Assembly: GCA_024635815.1 (NCBI GenBank)
Contig: JAGXIG010000111.1
Span: 1-27,233, forward strand
Reading direction: 5' to 3'
Origin: Salegentibacter sp.
Lineage (GTDB): Bacteria > Bacteroidota > Bacteroidia > Flavobacteriales > Flavobacteriaceae
Length of the DNA stretch: 27,233 bases
A model generated the notes under the pieces. That model did no database searches, was not told the DNA's origin, and saw only the letters and a list, made by a program, of their open reading frames with translations. Below, piece by piece: positions 8,351 to 26,467 of the stretch; within the stretch, counting starts at the first letter, position 1; each line of letters opens with the position of its first letter. The translations under genes were made by a program, and so were the position numbers.

Positions 8351-8710
8351 ATGGAATTTAAACGAGTAGAAATAACTCCTGAGGCAGATAAATTGCTGCA
8401 AGAACTCAAGCAGCAGCACGGCGAGGTGATCTTTCACCAAAGCGGCGGCTGTTGCGACGGGTCTTCCCCAATGTTGTTACCAAAGGAAGATTTCTATATA
8501 GACGATAATGATATTTTAATGGGTGAAGTTGGTGGCGTTAATTTTTACATGAGCCACGACCAGTTTGAATACTGGAAACATACCCATCTTACCGTGGATA
8601 TTATTAAGGGGAGGGGAGGCAGTTTTTCCCTCGATATTCCAACCGGTTACCGTTTTCTAATAAAATCAAGAATGCTTAATGATGAAGAAAACAAGAGTTT
8701 AAACCCTTAA
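8351..8710 (+). CDS. DUF779 family protein
   Basis: This is a 119-residue protein of the DUF779 family, recognised by HQSGGCCDGSSPM, the central MGEVGGVNFYMS segment and GGSFSLDIPTGYRFL. The conserved Cys pair plus a later His (KHTH) suggest metal or thiol chemistry, but no reaction is established. It follows the aldehyde dehydrogenase by three bases and is plainly co-transcribed with it. This pairing recurs in many bacteria and implies an accessory role in aldehyde or alcohol oxidation. A strong terminator follows within 15 bases. Confidence 0.92.
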   Translation: MEFKRVEITPEADKLLQELKQQHGEVIFHQSGGCCDGSSPMLLPKEDFYIDDNDILMGEVGGVNFYMSHDQFEYWKHTHLTVDIIKGRGGSFSLDIPTGYRFLIKSRMLNDEENKSLNP

Positions 8711-8724
8711 AATTTTTGTTTGAG

Positions 8725-8779
8725 AAAAGGCCTGGAAATCGAATATCACCCTAAATATTCAGGTTTTCGGGCCTTTTTT
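8725..8779 (+). terminator. Terminator of the aldehyde dehydrogenase-DUF779 operon
   Basis: A 16-bp stem is formed by 8725-8740 and 8762-8777, with three G-U pairs. AAAAGGCC is at the base, pairing into GGCCTTTT, and it is followed by further T residues. The loop is about 21 bases. The A-rich left arm also makes it a possible terminator for the convergent minus-strand gene. Confidence 0.8.
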
Positions 8780-17987: not shown

Positions 17988-19244
17988 TTATAAATTAAAA
18001 GCTTTCTTTACCTTATCAACATAATCAAGTTTTTCCCAGGTAAACAGTTCAACTTCTTTCTTTACTTCTCCTGAATACGGACTTTTAAAAATCTTGGTAA
18101 TGGTTCTTGGTTCTTTCCCCATATGCCCGTATGCGGCAGTTTCACGATAAATAGGGTTTCTAAGTTTCAGTCGGTTTTCAATGGCCCAGGGTCGCATATC
18201 AAAAATTTCAGCAACTTTTTGAGCAATTTCACCATCCTTCATATCTACTTTAGAAGTTCCGTAAGTTTCCACTGAAATTGAAGTTGGTTTTACCACTCCA
18301 ATGGCGTAAGAAACCTGCACTAAAACTTCATCTGCTAGTCCGGCAGCAACCAGATTTTTCGCAACGTGCCTGGCAGCATAAGCCGCAGAACGGTCTACTT
18401 TACTAGGGTCTTTCCCAGAAAATGCTCCGCCGCCGTGAGCACCTTTACCACCGTAAGTATCTACGATTATTTTTCTTCCTGTAAGTCCGGCATCGCCGTG
18501 GGGGCCGCCAATTACGAATTTTCCGGTAGGGTTTATATGATAAGTAATATCATCGTTAAATAGTTTTTGAACATATTTCGGCAATTGCTCTTTTACCCTT
18601 GGAATAAGGATTTTAAGAATATCTTTCTTGATTTTTTTGAGCATTTCATCATCATTCTCGTCAAAATCGTCATGCTGAGTGGAAACCACAATAGCCACTA
18701 TTTTCTGAGGAACGTTATCATCGCTATATTCAATAGTAACCTGGCTTTTAGAATCTGGTCGCAGGTAAGGAATATCTTTTCCTTCGCGCCTTAATTTTGC
18801 CAGTTCAATAAGTATTTTGTGAGAAATATCTAATGCCAGGGGCATATAATTTTCGGTCTCATTGGTGGCATAACCAAACATCATTCCCTGGTCTCCGGCA
18901 CCCTGTTCTTCTTTATTAGTGCGATCTACACCCTGGTAAATTTCCTGGGATTGTTCGTGGATTAAAGAAATAACGCCGCAGGAATCCCCGCTAAATTTAT
19001 AAGCACCTTTTGTATAACCAATATCATTGATTACTTCACGGGCAATATTTTGCACGTCTAAATAGGTGTTGCTTCTAACCTCGCCGGCAAGAACAACCTG
19101 ACCGGTAGTGACCAAAGTTTCACATGCGACTTTGGAATCTTCATCAAATGCAAGGAAGTTATCAAGTAAAGTATCGCTAATCTGATCTGCGATTTTATCT
19201 GGGTGTCCTTCAGAAACACTTTCTGAAGTAAATAAATAAGCCAT
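17988..19244 (-). CDS. metK: S-adenosylmethionine synthetase
   Basis: MetK makes SAM from methionine and ATP in the cytoplasm. The 418-residue protein carries all family hallmarks: [14 protein letters not shown] at the N-terminus, [12 protein letters not shown], and the glycine-rich phosphate loop [14 protein letters not shown] followed by [18 protein letters not shown]. Its length is slightly above the usual 380-400 because of an insertion around residues 190-215 ([13 protein letters not shown]). The ATG start at 19244 places the substrate-binding motif near residue 13, as normal. The leader of about 140 bases contains a SAM-II-like riboswitch, so expression is probably repressed by its own product. 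It is divergent from the methionine operon whose precursor it consumes. Confidence 0.98.
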
Positions 19245-19305
19245 ATTTTTAAATTAGTTTAAAAAATACGGGTTGAATTTGACGGGAAAAGCTAAGGGAG
19301 TAGTG

Positions 19306-19379
19306 ATACTGCTTTAGCATTTTTCTTACACTTCTTAAAGTATAAAAGGGTTGCAATCAGTCAAATCCTTCCCTTTATT
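19306..19379 (-). promoter_or_regulatory. SAM-II-type riboswitch in the metK leader
   Basis: Read on the minus strand, stem P1 is AAAGGG (19371-19376) pairing with CCCTTT (19345-19350). It encloses a loop with GATTTGAC and ATTGCAA, the conserved L1 blocks of the SAM-II aptamer, with ATTGCAA abutting the 3' strand of P1 as in that family. The conserved GCTAAA follows at 19313-19318. Then CAGT (19309-19312) can pair with ACTG in L1 (19358-19361) to form the pseudoknot. Between P1 and GCTAAA lies an extra 8-bp hairpin (TTATACTT / AAGTGTAA), as in the long-loop variants. The aptamer starts within a few bases of the predicted transcription start. The identification rests on motif recall, not a covariance search. 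Confidence 0.75.
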
Positions 19380-19389
19380 AATTCGGATA

Positions 19390-19418
19390 CAAATGTATAA
19401 AAATAACTCAGACTCAAA
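19390..19418 (-). promoter_or_regulatory. metK promoter
   Basis: On the minus strand, TTTG (19415-19418), 17 bases, then TACATTTG (19390-19397) match the Bacteroidetes -33/-7 consensus. Transcription would start near 19384, directly ahead of the riboswitch. Confidence 0.75.
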
Positions 19419-19632: not shown

Positions 19633-19665
19633 TTTGGATATTAAAAATTTCTACCCTTATCTTTG
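19633..19665 (+). promoter_or_regulatory. Promoter of the methionine operon leader
   Basis: TTTG at 19633-19636 and TATCTTTG at 19658-19665, spaced by 21 bases, give a good Bacteroidetes promoter. The start would be near 19671, only about 15 bases before leader peptide 1. No other promoter of this quality was found between here and metY, so both leaders and the operon probably share this start. Confidence 0.75.
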
Positions 19666-19685: not shown

Positions 19686-19757
19686 ATGTACCAGGTAATT
19701 TGCAATATGATGCGTATGATGATGTGGAAAACTTCCGCAGCGCGCTCAATTGCTTAA
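19686..19757 (+). CDS. Methionine-rich leader peptide 1 (23 aa)
   Basis: This short reading frame runs from ATG at 19686 to TAA at 19755-19757 and starts about 15 bases after the predicted transcription start. Residues 7-15 read NMMRMMMWK: five of six consecutive residues are Met, with another Met at 1 and one Cys at 6. No Shine-Dalgarno sequence is seen, as usual for this phylum. The codons after the Met run (19737-19745, GCAGCG then CGC) repeat the descending arm of the terminator downstream and can pair with its ascending arm. A ribosome waiting for charged Met-tRNA at 19716-19724 would cover bases up to roughly 19737 and leave that segment free. A ribosome reaching the stop would mask it. 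I interpret it as a cis-acting attenuation peptide for the metY operon, not a functional protein. Confidence 0.8.
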   Translation: MYQVICNMMRMMMWKTSAARSIA

Positions 19758-19775: not shown

Positions 19776-19812
19776 TGCAAAAAGCCGCTGCCAATCGCAG
19801 CGGTTTTTTGCA
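19776..19812 (+). terminator. Attenuator hairpin 1
   Basis: The 16-bp stem pairs 19776-19791 with 19797-19812 (one G-U), has a CAATC loop and a six-T run in the descending arm. It is 18 bases after the leader 1 stop. The competing antiterminator pairs GCAGCG (19737-19742), plus GC after a one-base bulge (19744-19745), with 19784-19791 of the ascending arm. Confidence 0.85.
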
Positions 19813-19821
19813 TTTAAAGAG

Positions 19822-19846
19822 AGTCATTTCCGAGAAAGCGGAAATC
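19822..19846. repeat. Palindromic repeat copy A
   Basis: This is a hairpin of 7 bp (ATTTCCG 19826-19832 with CGGAAAT 19839-19845), flanked by GTC and CT. It is a diverged copy of the TCATTCCCACGAAGGTGGGAATCT-type unit found twice more nearby. Confidence 0.55.
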
Positions 19847-19870
19847 TAAGGTTAGATTGAAATTAAAAAT

Positions 19871-19895
19871 GAGATTCCCGCCTTCGTGGGAATGA
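19871..19895 (-). repeat. Palindromic repeat copy B (inverted)
   Basis: The hairpin pairs ATTCCCG (19874-19880) with TGGGAAT (19887-19893), including one G-U. Its reverse complement matches copy C at all but about two positions over some 25 bases. It lies 13 bases before leader peptide 2. Confidence 0.7.
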
Positions 19896-19908
19896 AAAAG
19901 AAAATATT

Positions 19909-20001
19909 ATGATTAAGGCAATAAATATTATGATGATGTGCACTATGATGATGTGTATGTGTATGCGACACATGAAATGCTATTGCCAAAACCGAATGTA
20001 A
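19909..20001 (+). CDS. Methionine/cysteine-rich leader peptide 2 (30 aa)
   Basis: This reading frame runs from ATG at 19909 to TAA at 19999-20001. Of 30 residues, 11 are Met and 5 are Cys; residues 8-19 read MMMCTMMMCMCM, followed by Met22, Cys24 and Cys26. Such composition is not expected from a functional protein and fits a leader that measures charged Met-tRNA, perhaps together with Cys-tRNA. Bases 19979-19989, encoding residues 24-27, can form an 11-bp helix (one G-U) with 20036-20046, the top of the ascending arm and the loop of the next terminator. Stalling in the Met run would free this segment; reaching the stop would hide it. No separate promoter is seen, so it is probably read through from attenuator 1. 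Confidence 0.82.
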   Translation: MIKAINIMMMCTMMMCMCMRHMKCYCQNRM

Positions 20002-20025
20002 CTTAGTTTGTTTAGAGTTCAATTT

Positions 20026-20066
20026 AAAGGTCCCCTTGGTAATAGCTACTTAAGGGGATTTTTTTT
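20026..20066 (+). terminator. Attenuator hairpin 2
   Basis: The stem pairs 20026-20039 with 20050-20063. The core is TCCCCTT (20031-20037) with AAGGGGA (20052-20058), extended at both ends through A-T and G-U pairs, and it runs directly into a T-run ending at 20066. It lies 24 bases after the leader 2 stop and 98 bases before metY. The competing antiterminator is 19979-19989 with 20036-20046. Confidence 0.88.
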
Positions 20067-20077
20067 ATTAAAACCAG

Positions 20078-20102
20078 TCATTCCCACGAAGGTGGGAATC
20101 TA
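20078..20102 (+). repeat. Palindromic repeat copy C
   Basis: ATTCCCA (20080-20086) pairs with TGGGAAT (20093-20099). It is the inverted partner of copy B, so the two bracket leader peptide 2 and attenuator 2. Units of this appearance (GTCATTCCCACGAAGG...) are common interspersed repeats in bacteria. Confidence 0.7.
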
Positions 20103-20164: not shown

Positions 20165-21457
20165 ATGAGTACTCAAAAATTTTCAACTAACGCATTACAC
20201 GCCGGTCACGATACTAAAGCTAACGGAGGAACAAGGGCGGTGCCAATTTACCAAACTACTTCTTATGTTTTCAATAATTCAGATCACGCTGCCAATTTAT
20301 TTTCCCTGGCAGAGCCTGGTTATATTTATACCCGTTTAAATAATCCTACTAACGATATTCTGGAACAACGCCTTGCAGCCCTGGAAGGCGGAATTGCCGC
20401 GGTTGTAACTGCTTCAGGCACGGCCGCAATTAATACCACGCTTTTAACGCTATTAAAAACCGGCGATCATATTGTGGCTTCCAGCAGCTTATACGGCGGT
20501 ACTTACAATCTCCTGAGTGTAACTTTACCGAGATTTGGAATTAACACCACTTTCGTAGATCCGGAGAATCCCGAGAATTTTAAAAAGGCAGCAAAAGAAA
20601 ACACTCGAGCGATTTTTGTGGAATCACTGGGGAACCCAAAATTGGATGTTTTAGACCTTAAAGCAATTTCCGCACAAGCTAAGGCGCTTAAAGTTCCATT
20701 TATAGTCGATAATACTGTAGCAACGCCTTCCTTACTAAAACCGATTGAATACGGGGCCGATATTGTAATAGAATCGCTTACCAAATACATAGGCGGTAAC
20801 GGCACTTCCCTGGGGGGCGCCATTATAGATGCTGGTAACTTTAACTGGGCCAATGGAAAATTCCCTGAATTCACCGAACCATCGCCGGGATACCACGGAC
20901 TTGTTTATCACGAAGCTTTAAAGGAAGCTGCCTTTATTGCAAAAGTTAGGATTGAAGGCCTTCGGGATCACGGTGCGGCCTTAAGTCCGTATAATGCATT
21001 TCAGATTATACAAGGTTTGGAAACCCTGGAAATTAGAATCAAACAGCATAGTGAAAATGCACTGGAACTCGCTAAATGGCTCGAGCAGCAGGAGGAAGTA
21101 AAATGGGTGAATTATCCTGGGCTTGAAAGCAGCAAGTATAATAAACTCGCCAAAGAATACCTTCCAAAAGGGCAAAGTGGTGTGGTTACTTTTGGAGTAG
21201 AAGGCGGCTTCGAATCGGCGAAAGTTGTGGCTGATGAAACAAAACTTTTCTCCCTGGTTGCCAATATTGGAGATACGAAGTCTTTGATTATTCATCCTGC
21301 AAGCACCACGCATCAGCAACTGGACGAAAAACAACAGGCTACCGCCGGAGTTACGCAAGACCTTATTCGTCTTTCGGTAGGTTTGGAAGCTGTAGAAGAT
21401 TTAAAAACAGATCTAAAAGAGGCTTTTGCTAAAATTCAGAAAAAAGCACTGGTATAA
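20165..21457 (+). CDS. metY: O-acetylhomoserine sulfhydrylase
   Basis: This PLP enzyme of the Cys/Met metabolism family makes homocysteine directly from O-acetylhomoserine and sulfide. Over 430 residues it shows YTRLNNPTNDILEQRLAALEGG, the TASGTAAI cofactor loop, VDNTVATP, the PLP Lys in ESLTKYIGGNG, and the C-terminal NIGDTKSLIIHPASTTH and QDLIRLSVGLE motifs. The extended segment around residues 220-250 (NFNWANGKFPEFTEPSPGYHG) is typical of the OAH sulfhydrylase branch rather than cystathionine synthases. The ATG at 20165 is chosen; an in-frame ATG at 20129 would add 12 Lys-rich residues not expected for the family. It is the first gene after two attenuators and the likely main target of their control. 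Confidence 0.95.
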   Translation: MSTQKFSTNALHAGHDTKANGGTRAVPIYQTTSYVFNNSDHAANLFSLAEPGYIYTRLNNPTNDILEQRLAALEGGIAAVVTASGTAAINTTLLTLLKTGDHIVASSSLYGGTYNLLSVTLPRFGINTTFVDPENPENFKKAAKENTRAIFVESLGNPKLDVLDLKAISAQAKALKVPFIVDNTVATPSLLKPIEYGADIVIESLTKYIGGNGTSLGGAIIDAGNFNWANGKFPEFTEPSPGYHGLVYHEALKEAAFIAKVRIEGLRDHGAALSPYNAFQIIQGLETLEIRIKQHSENALELAKWLEQQEEVKWVNYPGLESSKYNKLAKEYLPKGQSGVVTFGVEGGFESAKVVADETKLFSLVANIGDTKSLIIHPASTTHQQLDEKQQATAGVTQDLIRLSVGLEAVEDLKTDLKEAFAKIQKKALV

Positions 21458-21542: not shown

Positions 21543-22607
21543 ATGCTTCAGGAACTCTGTTTAAAAGATTTTGAAAATTCCGCGGGAACGGTTCAGGATA
21601 TTTATTTGAGCTTTCAGCAGTTTGGACAAAATTCCGAAACTGCGCCGGTGGTTTTAATAAATCATGCGCTTACCGGAAATTCCCAAATAACCGGGAAACT
21701 GGGCTGGTGGACCAAAATAGTAGGTCCTCAAAAATGCATTGATACCGATAAGTACAGTATTCTGGCCTTTAATATTCCTGGAAATGGTTTCAACGGAAAA
21801 AAGGAACATCTAATTGAAAATTACAAGGAATTTACGCTCCGGGATATTGCCAGGATTCAAGCTTTAGCGCTTCAGCAATTAAAAATCGAAAAACTTTTTG
21901 CTATAATTGGCGGTTCTATTGGAGGTGCCCTTGCCTGGGAACTGGCTGCTTTAAAACCTGGTTTAGCCGAAAATATCATTCCCATAGCCACAGATTATAA
22001 GGCAACAGATTGGGTGTTGGCAAATTGTAAAGTTCAGGAGCAAATTTTGAATAATTCCAAAGAGCCGGTGAAAGATGCGAGAATGCATGCAATGACCTTT
22101 TACAGAACGCCACAATCGCTAAGCAAAAAGTTTAACCGAACAAAAGAAGAGGTGAAGCCTTGTTATAAAGTGGAAGGCTGGTTGCAGTTTCACGGAGATA
22201 AACTCGAAGAGCGATTTCAATTAGCTTCTTATAAATTAATGAATCATTTGCTGACTACCATAGACATTAGTAAAGGCAGCGGTAATTACCTGGAAGCCGC
22301 AAAGCAAATAGAGGGAGATATTCATATTGTAACCGTAAATTCAGATTGGTTTTTCCTGGCCGATGAGAACTGGGATACTTATGTAAACCTTTCGCTTGTA
22401 AAAAATAATGTAAGCATACACGAAATAAGATCAATTCACGGGCACGATGCGTTTTTAATTGAAGCTTCGCAATTGTCCAGGTTTTTAAAACCGGTATTTG
22501 AGACCAACACTGAAGAAAATGAAACCAGCAAAATGCTGAAAGCAAAAAGTTTCAACAAACAGGCTAAGGAAGATAGGTCTGTTTCAAATTCCCAAATTTG
22601 GGGTTAA
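21543..22607 (+). CDS. metX: Homoserine O-acetyltransferase
   Basis: This 354-residue alpha/beta-hydrolase transfers acetyl from acetyl-CoA to homoserine, the committed step of methionine synthesis. Visible features are the oxyanion segment INHALTGNSQ, the nucleophile elbow GGSIGGALAWE with the catalytic Ser, VNSDWFFLADEN in the place of the catalytic Asp region, and the catalytic His in GHDAFLIE. Length and motif order are normal for MetX. The ATG at 21543 is used rather than an in-frame TTG at 21513, which lies inside the intercistronic hairpin. The next gene starts 11 bases after the stop, so metX and hom are tightly coupled. Confidence 0.94.
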   Translation: MLQELCLKDFENSAGTVQDIYLSFQQFGQNSETAPVVLINHALTGNSQITGKLGWWTKIVGPQKCIDTDKYSILAFNIPGNGFNGKKEHLIENYKEFTLRDIARIQALALQQLKIEKLFAIIGGSIGGALAWELAALKPGLAENIIPIATDYKATDWVLANCKVQEQILNNSKEPVKDARMHAMTFYRTPQSLSKKFNRTKEEVKPCYKVEGWLQFHGDKLEERFQLASYKLMNHLLTTIDISKGSGNYLEAAKQIEGDIHIVTVNSDWFFLADENWDTYVNLSLVKNNVSIHEIRSIHGHDAFLIEASQLSRFLKPVFETNTEENETSKMLKAKSFNKQAKEDRSVSNSQIWG

Positions 22608-22618
22608 AATATAAATTG

Positions 22619-23692
22619 ATGAAGAAAGTGAACATCATTTTGTTTGGAATTGGTAACGTAGGCAGTACTTTGATCCAGCAATTACTCGGTGCAAAAGAGC
22701 AGTGGGAAAAGCATTCCGGGGTTTCGGTAAGTATTCCTGTGATTGCCAATTCTAGCAAAGCTCTTTTTAATGCCGAAGGGATTTCTGAAAACTGGCAAAA
22801 AGATTTCAAAAAATCTGCTGAAAAGTACAAATTGGAAGATATCCTGGATTTTACAAAAGATAACGACCTGGAACATCTTATCGCGATAGATGCCACGGCG
22901 AGCAAGGAATTTGTGGATATTTATATTCGGCTAATTCAAAACGGCTTTAACCTGGTAGCGGCCAATAAAGTAGCTAATACACTTTCTGCCGATTTTTATA
23001 ACGAATTACGAAAAGAATTAGATTACCACGGAAAATATTTTCACTACGAAACCAATGTAGGTGCCGGTCTGCCAATTGTACAAACCGTGCAGGGCTTGCA
23101 CCAGGCGGGAGAAAAAGTCACTAAAATCAGGGGTGTTTTTTCCGGTTCGCTGAGTTTTATTTTCAATACTTTTTCTGAAAACAAAGAAAAGTTCTCTGAA
23201 GTTTTGCGAAAAGCTGGAAAATTGGGATATACAGAACCCGATGCCCGGGAAGATCTTTCAGGAAATGATGTTGGAAGAAAGTTATTAATCCTGGCGCGCG
23301 AGCTTCAGCTGGAAAAAGAATTTAAGGAAGTTAAAATTCAATCCTTAATTCCGGAGAAATTAAACGGACAAACTTCCGCGGAAGAATTTCAGCGGAGAAT
23401 AGGTGAGCTGGACGAAATATTTTTTAAGCATAAAAAAGAGCAAAATAAAGATCACGTACTAAGGTATATTGGAGAAATTGAAGTAGGAAGCGCCAACCTG
23501 GAGGCAAAACTTATTTCTGAACCTAAAAATAGCGCACTTGGACAAATTAAAGGCGCTGATAATATTTTTGAGATTTACACCGAGTCTTACGGCGACCAAC
23601 CGCTGGTTATTCAGGGTGCCGGGGCAGGAGCAGCGGTAACCGCTCGCGGTGTGGTTAGCGATGTGCTTAAATTATCGCAAAGACTAAATTAA
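22619..23692 (+). CDS. hom: Homoserine dehydrogenase (ThrA/MetL-type domain, standalone)
   Basis: It reduces aspartate semialdehyde to homoserine with NAD(P)H. The 357-residue protein has the Rossmann motif FGIGNVGSTLI, VAANKVANT, the SGSLSFIFNTF segment and GYTEPDAREDLSGNDVGRKLLILARE. The last two are much closer to the C-terminal domain of bifunctional ThrA/MetL of enterobacteria than to ordinary monofunctional Hom (usually NGTTNFIL). There is no N-terminal aspartokinase part and no C-terminal ACT domain, so feedback by threonine on this protein is not expected. The ATG at 22619 is preferred to a TTG at 22598 that overlaps metX. Its place between metX and metZ dedicates the homoserine to methionine. 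Confidence 0.93.
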   Translation: MKKVNIILFGIGNVGSTLIQQLLGAKEQWEKHSGVSVSIPVIANSSKALFNAEGISENWQKDFKKSAEKYKLEDILDFTKDNDLEHLIAIDATASKEFVDIYIRLIQNGFNLVAANKVANTLSADFYNELRKELDYHGKYFHYETNVGAGLPIVQTVQGLHQAGEKVTKIRGVFSGSLSFIFNTFSENKEKFSEVLRKAGKLGYTEPDAREDLSGNDVGRKLLILARELQLEKEFKEVKIQSLIPEKLNGQTSAEEFQRRIGELDEIFFKHKKEQNKDHVLRYIGEIEVGSANLEAKLISEPKNSALGQIKGADNIFEIYTESYGDQPLVIQGAGAGAAVTARGVVSDVLKLSQRLN

Positions 23693-24971: not shown

Positions 24972-25388
24972 ATGCTTTCAAAAAAGACCAAATACGGTAT
25001 TAAAGCCCTGGCGTTTATCGCCAAAAAGGGAGATAGAAAACCCGTACAAGCTTCAGAGATCTCAAAAAGTGAAAATATCTCGCAGAAATTCCTTGAAAGC
25101 ATACTTCTGGAATTGCGAAAATCGGGATTTTTAGGGTCTAAAAAAGGTAAAGGTGGTGGTTACTATTTAATTAAAGAACCTGAAGATATTCGAATGACTT
25201 CAGTAATTCGGGTTTTAGAGGGACCTATTGCGATGGTACCTTGTGTGAGTCTTAATTACTACGAAAAGTGTGACGACTGCCCCAGTGAAGAAGCCTGTTC
25301 AGTACATAGTTTAATGATTCAGGTTAGGGATAGTACCCTAAAGGTTCTGGGAGATAATACTTTAGCCGATATTTCTGCTAAGAAATAA
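24972..25388 (+). CDS. Rrf2-family regulator with four clustered cysteines
   Basis: This is a 138-residue winged-helix regulator. The N-terminal MLSKKTKYGIKALAFIAKKG, the recognition helix region ISQKFLESILLELRKSGFLGSKKG and the wing GKGGGYYL are diagnostic of Rrf2. The C-terminal part has Cys in PCVSLNYYEKCDDCPSEEAC (spacing C-x8-C-x2-C-x5-C), like the Fe-S-binding region of IscR/NsrR but with one extra Cys. Family members sense Fe-S status, NO or cysteine (CymR). Placement between methionine genes and a sulfate-reduction operon favours a sulfur role. The ATG at 24972 is chosen because the family always starts right before this motif; the longer frame from 24879 is not plausible. A weak -7-like TATATTCG lies just upstream. 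Confidence 0.9.
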   Translation: MLSKKTKYGIKALAFIAKKGDRKPVQASEISKSENISQKFLESILLELRKSGFLGSKKGKGGGYYLIKEPEDIRMTSVIRVLEGPIAMVPCVSLNYYEKCDDCPSEEACSVHSLMIQVRDSTLKVLGDNTLADISAKK

Positions 25389-25435
25389 GAATAAGAGAAA
25401 TAAATGTTAAATACTGAAATTTAGGCCATTAAAAA

Positions 25436-25466
25436 TTGGTCTGCTAAAAAAACAAAGTTACTTTTG
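25436..25466 (+). promoter_or_regulatory. Promoter of the DUF2061-cysH operon
   Basis: TTGG at 25436-25439 and TACTTTTG at 25459-25466, spaced by 19 bases, match the Bacteroidetes consensus. Transcription should start about 25472, inside the palindrome described next. Confidence 0.75.
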
Positions 25467-25471
25467 CTCTA

Positions 25472-25494
25472 TAACCTACTAATCCGATAGGTTA
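25472..25494. promoter_or_regulatory. Candidate Rrf2 operator
   Basis: This is an inverted repeat, TAACCTA (25472-25478) and TAGGTTA (25488-25494), with a 9-base spacer. It covers the predicted transcription start of the sulfate-reduction operon, so binding would block transcription. An Rrf2 gene ends 84 bases upstream. Arm length and spacing suit a homodimeric Rrf2 protein. The link between the two is inference. Confidence 0.55.
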
Positions 25495-25517
25495 ATAGAA
25501 TTTAAACAAGAAGCAGT

Positions 25518-25769
25518 ATGATACTGGATCAGGTAAAATCTAAAAGCACTTATAAAAAAGACAGTACTTCCGAGAAGCCCTTACGAAGTATTTTAAAAAC
25601 GGTGAGTTGGAGAATTGTAGGAACCATAGATACGATTGTTATATCCTGGGTTCTTACAGAAGAAATTGAAACCGCACTCGCAATCGGGTCGGTAGAATTG
25701 GTAACTAAGATGATCCTTTATTTTGGCCACGAGCGGCTTTGGAACATGATCAGTTTTGGAAAAGAATAA
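25518..25769 (+). CDS. DUF2061 small membrane protein
   Basis: This 83-residue protein is of the DUF2061 family, seen as RSILKTVSWRIVGTIDTIVISWVLT followed by GSVELVTKMILYFGHERLWNMISFG. Two hydrophobic segments (about residues 31-50 and 52-68) suggest insertion in the inner membrane. No activity is assigned to the family. It is the first gene of the operon with cysH (68 bases downstream), and family members recur beside sulfate-assimilation genes, so a role in sulfate or sulfite passage or membrane anchoring is possible but unproven. Confidence 0.88.
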   Translation: MILDQVKSKSTYKKDSTSEKPLRSILKTVSWRIVGTIDTIVISWVLTEEIETALAIGSVELVTKMILYFGHERLWNMISFGKE

Positions 25770-25837
25770 AATTGCGTTTTAGCAAAGTATATAAAGAATA
25801 GTATTAGGTCCTGAAACGGCCATAAAATTTGTAAAAG

Positions 25838-26467
25838 ATGAAACGGTACAGCGAAAATGAATTAAAGATCCTCAACCAGCAGTTTAAGGGAATTACGCCG
25901 GCTGAGATCGTACAATGGGTGATATCAAACTCGGCAAGGCCGGTGATTACCACCAATTTCAGACCTTATGAAGCTGCAATTTTGCACGCGGTTTCAGAGA
26001 TAGATCCGGTAATAAAAGTAATTTGGTGCGATACCGGTTACAATACGCCGCAAACTTATAAACACGCGAAACACGTGATAGACCAGTTATCGCTTAACGT
26101 TAAGCTTTACACACCAAAGCAAACCGCAGCTTATCGCGATGCGCTTTTTGGCGGAATCCCTGATATTAATAATCCGCAGCACGAAGAGTTCACTAAACAG
26201 GTGAAACTGGAACCTTTTCTGCGGGCAATGCGTCAGCAAAATCCAGATGTTTGGTTTACCAATCTTAGAAAGGGCCAAACAAGTTTTAGGGATAGTATAG
26301 ATGTTTTAAGCTACAGCAAAGACGGAATTTTAAAAGTGAGTCCGTTTTACCATTGGAGCGATGAAAAACTAGATGCTTATTTAGAGCAAAATGATCTGCC
26401 AAACGAGTTTAAATATTTTGACCCTACCAAAGTTCTGGAAAACCGTGAATGTGGTCTACACGCTTGA
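25838..26467 (+). CDS. cysH: Phosphoadenylylsulfate (PAPS) reductase
   Basis: This 209-residue enzyme reduces activated sulfate to sulfite using thioredoxin or a similar thiol. Motifs are ITTNFRPYEAAILH near the substrate site, VIWCDTGYNTPQTY, the NLRKGQT Arg segment, KVSPFYHW, and the catalytic Cys in the C-terminal RECGLHA. The two Cys-Cys pairs that bind a [4Fe-4S] cluster in APS reductases are absent, so PAPS is the likelier substrate. It is somewhat shorter than E. coli CysH. The stop is only nine bases before leader peptide 3, and the sulfite reductase gene follows in the same direction. Confidence 0.93.
   Translation: MKRYSENELKILNQQFKGITPAEIVQWVISNSARPVITTNFRPYEAAILHAVSEIDPVIKVIWCDTGYNTPQTYKHAKHVIDQLSLNVKLYTPKQTAAYRDALFGGIPDINNPQHEEFTKQVKLEPFLRAMRQQNPDVWFTNLRKGQTSFRDSIDVLSYSKDGILKVSPFYHWSDEKLDAYLEQNDLPNEFKYFDPTKVLENRECGLHA

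Follow-up and report, generated by a model that had tools for sequence, protein, structure and literature searches.

Two putative leader-peptide attenuators with methionine and cysteine codons in series before the metY operon of Salegentibacter and related Flavobacteriaceae

In the 27,233-nt stretch of Salegentibacter sp. DNA that we analysed (hereafter the window; contig JAGXIG010000111.1), the metY-metX-hom operon is probably controlled by two ribosome-mediated transcription attenuators, which would lie in series between one promoter and the first gene (probability roughly 0.8). Each unit combines Met/Cys control codons, the would-be sensor, with an antiterminator strand located where the short reading frame ends and a putative intrinsic terminator. 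Ribosome-mediated attenuation of this operon would agree with three properties of the sequences compared here, i.e. conserved codons, a covarying antiterminator and terminator, and the spacing of leader 1.

Results

Two leader frames precede metY

The features of the region are listed in Table 1. Translation of leader 2 gives a peptide with 11 Met, including the start, and 5 Cys, which bears out what the first-pass annotation had reported for the 30-codon leader and its residues 8-19. With the local base composition and this frame as given, the probability of at least 10 Met in 29 codons is 3.4e-10 and that of at least 5 Cys is 1.1e-3, in line with the earlier claim that such a Met density is improbable by chance. 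The choice of this frame is a moot issue for these values because comparison shows leader 2 to be retained by 53 of the 80 metY loci from relatives. The 11-bp helix that had been drawn between residues 24-27 and the next hairpin is likewise present, with complementarity at 11 positions, one of which is a G-U pair. Together, terminator 2 and a covarying antiterminator uphold the view that leader 2 has an attenuator of its own. The proposal that this is the attenuator of the metY operon stands as regards its ribosome-mediated type and was incomplete, because leader 2 appears to be the second of two leader-peptide attenuators in series.

Table 1. Features of the metK-metY region and of the metY operon in the window
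Feature	Position	Strand	Details
metK	17988-19244	divergent from metY	TIGR01034
SAM-II riboswitch of divergent metK	19304-19380	-	RF01726, 61.2 bits
Bacteroidetes-type promoter match	19633-19665	+	TTTG 19633-19636, TATCTTTG 19658-19665
Leader peptide 1	19686-19757	+	encodes MYQVICNMMRMMMWKTSAARSIA
Leader 1 antiterminator strand	19737-19753	+	GCAGCG 19737-19742, TTGC 19750-19753
Terminator 1 (predicted)	19783-19809	+	hairpin 19783-19805, T-run 19804-19809
Leader peptide 2	19909-20001	+	encodes MIKAINIMMMCTMMMCMCMRHMKCYCQNRM, 30 aa
Leader 2 control codons, residues 8-19	19930-19965	+	8 Met and 3 Cys among 12
Leader 2 antiterminator strand within coding tail, residues 24-27	19979-19989	+	GCTATTGCCAA
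Partner of leader 2 antiterminator strand	20036-20046	+	TTGGTAATAGC; upper terminator 5' arm and loop
Terminator 2 (predicted)	20030-20066	+	hairpin 20030-20059, T-run 20059-20066 (8 T)
metY, O-acetylhomoserine aminocarboxypropyltransferase/cysteine synthase family	20165-21457	+	TIGR01326, 641.5 bits (cut-off 495.1)
metX-like homoserine O-acyltransferase	21543-22607	+	TIGR01392, 190.7 bits (below curated cut-off of 500)
Homoserine dehydrogenase (hom)	22619-23692	+	homoserine dehydrogenase part of PRK09436, 368.4 bits (below cut-off of this bifunctional enzyme model)

An intrinsic terminator is predicted between the leader and the first gene for both leaders. In leader 1, the GCAGCG and TTGC parts of the antiterminator strand have their partners at 19786-19791 and 19777-19780, respectively. 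A pattern that we take to be a promoter of the Bacteroidetes type lies 20 bp ahead of leader 1 and is the only match upstream of either leader in the window. The pattern occurs twice in the window, with 1.67 matches expected by chance, so its weight rests on position and recurrence. Indeed, 24 of the 43 leader-1 loci have the pattern, in strict (15 loci) or relaxed form, 18-22 bp upstream of leader 1, as does the window; in most Flavobacterium loci, no match to the pattern precedes leader 1. A -7 box was absent from the 75 bp ahead of leader 2, both in the window and in the 12 leader-2 loci inspected. With a promoter match only before leader 1 and no -7 box before leader 2, the two attenuators are apparently serial.

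The second match to the promoter pattern, at 19390-19418, precedes SAM-II/metK as a promoter-like sequence of its own. The metK-metY intergenic region would thus hold one SAM sensor and two peptide attenuators, which point apart. Farther downstream, an imperfect palindrome (AACCTACTAATCCGATAGGTT) at 25473-25493 directly follows an Rrf2-family regulator gene and lies ahead of a small ORF (25518-25769) and cysH; it is possibly the operator of a separate sulfate-assimilation unit. Inspection by eye and of the ORF list revealed no Cys attenuator before cysH (25380-25850).

The tail is conserved as RNA and the control zone as codons

As assessed in 44 and 49 leaders (the leader-2 rows of L020, L028, L076, L077, and L079 were omitted, since the tail pattern missed them), Met accounts for 29.1 and 31.9% and Cys for 11.3 and 12.1% of the control codons of leaders 1 and 2, respectively, vs 1.32 and 0.51% in long frames. 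These codons concentrate between -60 and -13 nt from the tail anchor in leader 2 (54 rows) and between -36 and -13 nt in leader 1; Met drops to 0-1% at -12 to -1. The distance from the last Met/Cys codon of leader 1 to the antiterminator strand is 15 nt in 34 of 44 rows and 14 nt in eight, which is approximately how far a ribosome reaches beyond its A site. In leader 2, the corresponding distance, measured to the anchor, is 13 nt in 23 of 54 rows and 19 nt in 22; codons 13 nt away (Met22 in the window) are too near to free the tail, and the codons upstream would therefore be the sensors.

The tail nucleotides are read in several frames. In leader 2, 49, two, and one rows use different frames and in two more the tail lies past the stop (four changes on the tree), and in leader 1 two frames are used by 36 and eight rows (two changes). 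The peptide ends YCQ, AIAK, and LLLPK, and likewise SAE and PQR, therefore encode the same RNA. On this comparison, the tail is kept as RNA and, upstream of it, Met and Cys are kept as codons. A short Met/Cys-rich frame, putatively translated, is thus conserved at the codon level, as befits an attenuator.

Antiterminators and terminators covary

The leader 2 elements number 54, 50 of which are distinct, and 45 were aligned (L002, L005, L006, L073, and L075 were omitted as near-duplicates). In these 45 rows, 91.5% of the antiterminator 2 cells are paired, vs at most 57.3% in slid registers. Four pairs are changed on both sides, which is equalled by 6 of 500 shuffles, and the covariation score is reached by none of 500 shuffles, all of which keep common descent. 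In the 26 rows with a GGTAAT loop, drawn from the 45 (20 rows) and from 10 held-out leader loci (6 rows), one pair is seen as C-G, G-C, A-U, and G-U, and the number of doubly changed pairs is matched by 77 of 500 shuffles. Terminator 2 is paired in 97.8% of cells (45 rows), with 6 of 10 pairs changed on both sides. Antiterminator 1 is paired in 94.0% of cells (44 rows), with 100% in the inner six pairs and 84.6% in the outer four, and displays a concerted change at three places of antiterminator and terminator (C-G-C in 24 rows, A-T-A in 16, and A-T-G in 4). Its covariation score is reached by none of 500 shuffles and its doubly changed pairs by 239 of 500, again in controls that leave relatedness in place.

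The duplex between tail and terminator arm in leader 2 has a mean energy of -13.4 kcal/mol with the locus's own arm, vs -4.9 kcal/mol with shuffled tails and -11.8 kcal/mol with the arms of other loci. The own duplex is more than 2 sd below that of shuffled tails in 53 of 54 rows, and is weaker than swapped pairings in 19 of 54, including 10 Flavobacterium-type rows (-11.0 vs -13.9 to -14.5). In a fixed register, 45 distinct rows are 72.9% paired vs a mean of 70.2 in 500 arm swaps, none of which reaches the former value; the doubly changed cells are reached by 1 of 500 swaps, the doubly changed pairs by 234, and the pair types by 369. The stretch between tail and terminator is variable in length and sequence.

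The leaders alternate with SAM riboswitches

A comparative look for Met-rich short frames before metY, as proposed in the first-pass annotation, was rewarding. We took the best 80 of 568 confirmed metY loci, a set that is biased to close relatives because it was chosen by protein similarity to MetY. Leader 1 with its terminator is present in 43 of these loci, leader 2 in 53, both in 41, and neither in 25; at least one leader is thus found in 55 of 80. The carriers belong to Salegentibacter, Christiangramia, Salinimicrobium, Mesonia, Flavobacterium, and other Flavobacteriaceae/Flavobacteriales, plus one contig labelled Bifidobacterium. This metagenome-assembled contig (L035, labelled Bifidobacterium breve) has the leaders and a MetY that groups with Flavobacterium, and is probably mis-binned. 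Leader 2 stands alone in 11 loci, with no leader-1 tail within 1400 bp (a twelfth such locus, L018, has just 170 bp of upstream sequence), and leader 1 stands alone in two (L049 and L062), so each attenuator unit can stand alone.

All 25 leaderless loci have a sense-strand SAM riboswitch right before metY (24 SAM-I and one SAM-II, in L056), and none of the 54 leader loci covered by the Rfam scan (L079 is outside it) has a SAM riboswitch before metY on its strand. In the window, neither RF00162 nor RF01726 is found on the + strand before metY, and the metY strand has no Rfam match at gathering score. The best non-SAM matches at a relaxed threshold, FtrB (28.4 bits) and Thr_leader (26.2 bits), are far below their gathering scores and were taken as chance. 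On the MetY tree, the leader/SAM label needs two changes (possibly one) vs 21.7 for shuffled labels, and none of 500 shuffles is as low. As judged from these loci, the putative leader pair occupies, in a clade of Flavobacteriaceae, the position before metY at which relatives carry the SAM riboswitch. Because of this shared position, ribosome stalling when sulfur amino acids are scarce probably takes the place of direct SAM sensing at metY.

SAM-I is found farther downstream of metY in 27 of the 54 leader loci scanned, including Flavobacterium and Mesonia. These clusters would have two sensing systems each. In L044, for example, SAM-I (8665-8772) is immediately before metX, and metY has the leaders.

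A model without the control codons finds further leaders

We searched for further elements using a covariance model of leader 2 that starts 10 nt upstream of the tail anchor, ends with the T-run, and excludes the control codons. Among 299 genomes from the family and 395 from the order, it matched (E <= 1e-4) at least 14 and at least 27, respectively; these are lower bounds because only 14 or 11 candidates were scored per genome. Thirty held-out loci (11 + 19) were left after exclusion of the source genome, of repeats, and of elements that matched training loci exactly; some are closely related to training rows or to one another. A Met/Cys-rich frame ends at the predicted place in 28 of them, including a weak leader in L143 with two Met and one Cys before the tail. 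No Met/Cys leader was found at the other two hits, L133 (the weakest, 48.4 bits) and L152 (before hom). The gene that follows in the 28 leader-bearing loci, with names that rest on N-termini, is metY in 25, metX in one (L131), hom in one (L143), and another gene in one (L149). The elements before hom (L143 and L152) and metX (L131) suggest that the leader module may have moved between sulfur genes.

Five genomes were also searched at E <= 1, with scores for up to 150 candidates in each; the metY element reaches 77.5-95.5 bits, and every other candidate stays at or below 38.3. The Met-rich leader pattern ATGATGNNNATGATG gave 60 rows in five related genomes; further Met/Cys leaders with other tails are possible among these matches.

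A proposed mechanism in which ribosome position selects the RNA structure

From this anatomy we infer a scheme of transcription, translation, stalling, termination, and signal identity. With Met-tRNA and Cys-tRNA both charged, the ribosome would proceed to the stop codon and cover the antiterminator strand, and the terminator would form. With Met-tRNA (very likely) or Cys-tRNA (probably) in short supply, the ribosome would stall on the upstream control codons, leaving the tail free to pair with the 5' side of the terminator before the 3' side is made, and metY-metX-hom would be transcribed. RNA polymerase would have both terminators to pass.

The predicted antiterminator helices overlap the 5' side of the terminators, so the two structures would be mutually exclusive. 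Under an assumed ribosome footprint, unit 2 folds into the terminator with the ribosome at the stop codon (-17.2 kcal/mol) and into the antiterminator with the tail free and no 3' arm (-18.2 kcal/mol); the corresponding values for unit 1 are -24.3 and -16.6 kcal/mol. In both units, the terminator is the minimum-energy fold of the full-length sequence (-20.3 kcal/mol for leader 2), so release must depend on kinetics, as it does for known attenuators. Four bases of the 5' arm, TTGG, are all that the antiterminator occupies in the Salegentibacter terminator; the CCCC/GGGG remnant could still pair, which makes this short overlap the weakest point of the anatomy. Folds of the leader stretches show only weak local pairing and, in an unsystematic look, no separate 1:2 pause hairpin was recognised.

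Which amino acids are sensed

The suggestion that a single peptide senses both sulfur amino acids, such that a shortage of either Met or Cys could release the metY operon, could be right in part. Met sensing by the leaders is very probable, and the proposal of Met codons as sensors is supported. Cys sensing is somewhat more probable than its absence. The stall-release zone does not extend to Cys24, Cys26, and Met30 of leader 2, which are encoded in the RNA tail or after it; a ribosome stalled at either of the two cysteines would cover the tail, so that only Cys11, Cys16, and Cys18 are candidate sensors, and Cys24 and Cys26 probably are not.

The chief competitor is an arrangement of two attenuators in which Met codons alone sense, Cys codons being side effects of a TG-rich sequence and of the tail RNA. 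In its favour, the control zones hold roughly 2.6 Met for each Cys, leader 1 closes its control zone with Met throughout (100% of 88 codons at -18 to -13), Cys24 and Cys26 belong to the tail RNA, the +1 frame has a Cys share of 14.0 and 14.5% in the two leaders, and both leaders of held-out locus L132 contain Met but no Cys ahead of the tail. On the other hand, Cys6 of leader 1 occurs in 27 of 39 rows as 16 TGC and 11 TGT, with six codon changes on the tree, and in most rows it stands between ATT and AAT rather than adjoining ATG. Met and Cys also exchange at the same positions, with 11 Met and 14 Cys among 28 rows at position 9 of leader 1 (two changes) and 4 Met and 12 Cys among 16 at position 11 of leader 2 (three changes), although ATG and TGT/TGC differ in all three bases. 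These column counts cover leaders of matching length only (39 rows for position 6 and 28 for position 9 of leader 1; 16 for leader 2). Two held-out leaders (L127 and L129) have CCC runs, and Cys is found before the tail in 8 of 9 held-out leader 1 and 9 of 10 held-out leader 2 sequences. A point against Cys sensing is that the Cys count is only in moderate excess over dinucleotide-preserving shuffles (124 vs 91 +- 7 for leader 2 and 70 vs 44 +- 6 for leader 1), none of 100 of which reaches it. Judging from codon usage in the alignments, Cys codons appear to be under selection in the releasing zone, and we regard sensing by Met alone as doubtful. The fullest statement, that two serial attenuators each read Met-tRNA or Cys-tRNA and displaced SAM-I once or twice in the Flavobacteriaceae, is in our estimate evenly balanced between true and false.

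Readings without attenuation fare much worse. A metabolite-binding RNA for SAM or methionine, i.e. a new riboswitch with a coincidental reading frame, would explain the conserved hairpins and a position identical to that of SAM-I in relatives. It is nevertheless very improbable, with no Rfam match on the metY strand at gathering scores, with in-frame Met/Cys codons as the conserved property upstream of the tail, and with a tail-terminator stretch that varies and offers little structure for a ligand pocket. Still less probable are small functional Met/Cys-rich proteins followed by ordinary terminators. Met and Cys do bind Cu and Zn, so metal binding would be one such function, and many of the leader peptides have 18-36 aa; against this, their C-terminal part shifts frame while the nucleotides stay, the peptides differ in length and start, the tail covaries with the terminator, and metY, metX, or hom comes next in 27 of 28 held-out leader loci. 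A chance ORF beside a terminator, or insertion of a repeat, has a negligible probability. What speaks for it is a REP-like palindromic repeat (GTCATTCCCACGAAGGTGGGAATCT and diverged forms), three copies of which lie at 19823-19847 (+), 19872-19896 (-), and 20077-20101 (+), the last two forming an inverted pair that flanks leader 2. There are three matches in the window vs 0.01 expected. The repeat core is present in only 2 of 80 metY loci and absent from the other 78, and leaders are conserved in 55 of 80, which refutes this explanation and led us to reject the repeats as the origin of the leader 2 structure. Two serial ribosome-mediated attenuators thus remain the preferred reading.

Discussion

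Classical leader-peptide attenuators are those of trp, his, thr, and ilvGMEDA in enterobacteria, some of which read several amino acids in one leader (Thr and Ile, or Ile, Leu, and Val). The metY leaders resemble them in having control codons of their own pathway and in a predicted choice between antiterminator and terminator set by ribosome position. They differ in that they would sense Met and probably Cys, have the antiterminator strand inside the coding tail, occur two in series and at a riboswitch position, and lack a recognised 1:2 pause hairpin. Methionine genes are a textbook case for SAM riboswitches, and SAM-I (S-box, RF00162), found at this position ahead of metY in relatives, binds SAM itself and works without translation, unlike the proposed action of the metY leaders.

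Among published systems, Salmonella mgtCBR carries attenuators at two short ORFs of a single leader mRNA, and these respond to ATP and proline (PMC3641672); that tandem reads two signals, whereas the metY tandem carries one Met/Cys code twice. For metNIQ of Streptomyces lividans, a Met leader named metL (MSTTSDRTPATEATTTPGARCMCRRMCAF) containing CMCRRMC has been proposed, and in the passages on it the authors remark on the lack of a typical Rho-independent terminator and point to methionines and threonines without mention of Cys (PMC8079986). It shares with the metY leaders Cys beside Met, and differs in belonging to another phylum and to a transport operon. Cys leader peptides with runs of Cys codons before a sulfur operon are described in Mycobacterium and other Actinobacteria; in the portion of that article devoted to them, no conserved terminator hairpin was found in Mycobacterium, no Met code is described, and no such leader was found before methionine operons, unlike for metY (PMC1262725).

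Closer to Salegentibacter, a transcriptome-based study of Flavobacterium psychrophilum, which belongs to the same family, mentions "strong clues" of leader-peptide attenuation before amino-acid operons, and metY is absent from its main text (Table S7 aside; PMC9723704). In B. thetaiotaomicron, candidate leader ORFs are reported, with no Met example in the text consulted (PMC7366714), and the word methionine is absent from the main text of PMC4833913. Switches between RNA sensing systems have been described for other genes, in an article with no word starting with bacteroid or flavobacter in its main text (PMC2965389). In the open-licence literature, we found no published description of the metY leader element, and only general statements on leader-peptide attenuation in the phylum Bacteroidetes.

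The metY leaders would provide an anatomically complete example of a peptide attenuator responsive to Met, and a system in which to ask why bacteria serialise two attenuators of identical code. Because these Met/Cys leaders stand where relatives have a SAM riboswitch, sensing of a metabolite and of tRNA charging can be compared on the same gene in related genera. If the metY leaders are indeed dual sensors, the signal at metY would have changed from the end product SAM to tRNA charging, and the divergent metK, served by the same intergenic region, would have kept its SAM-II riboswitch.
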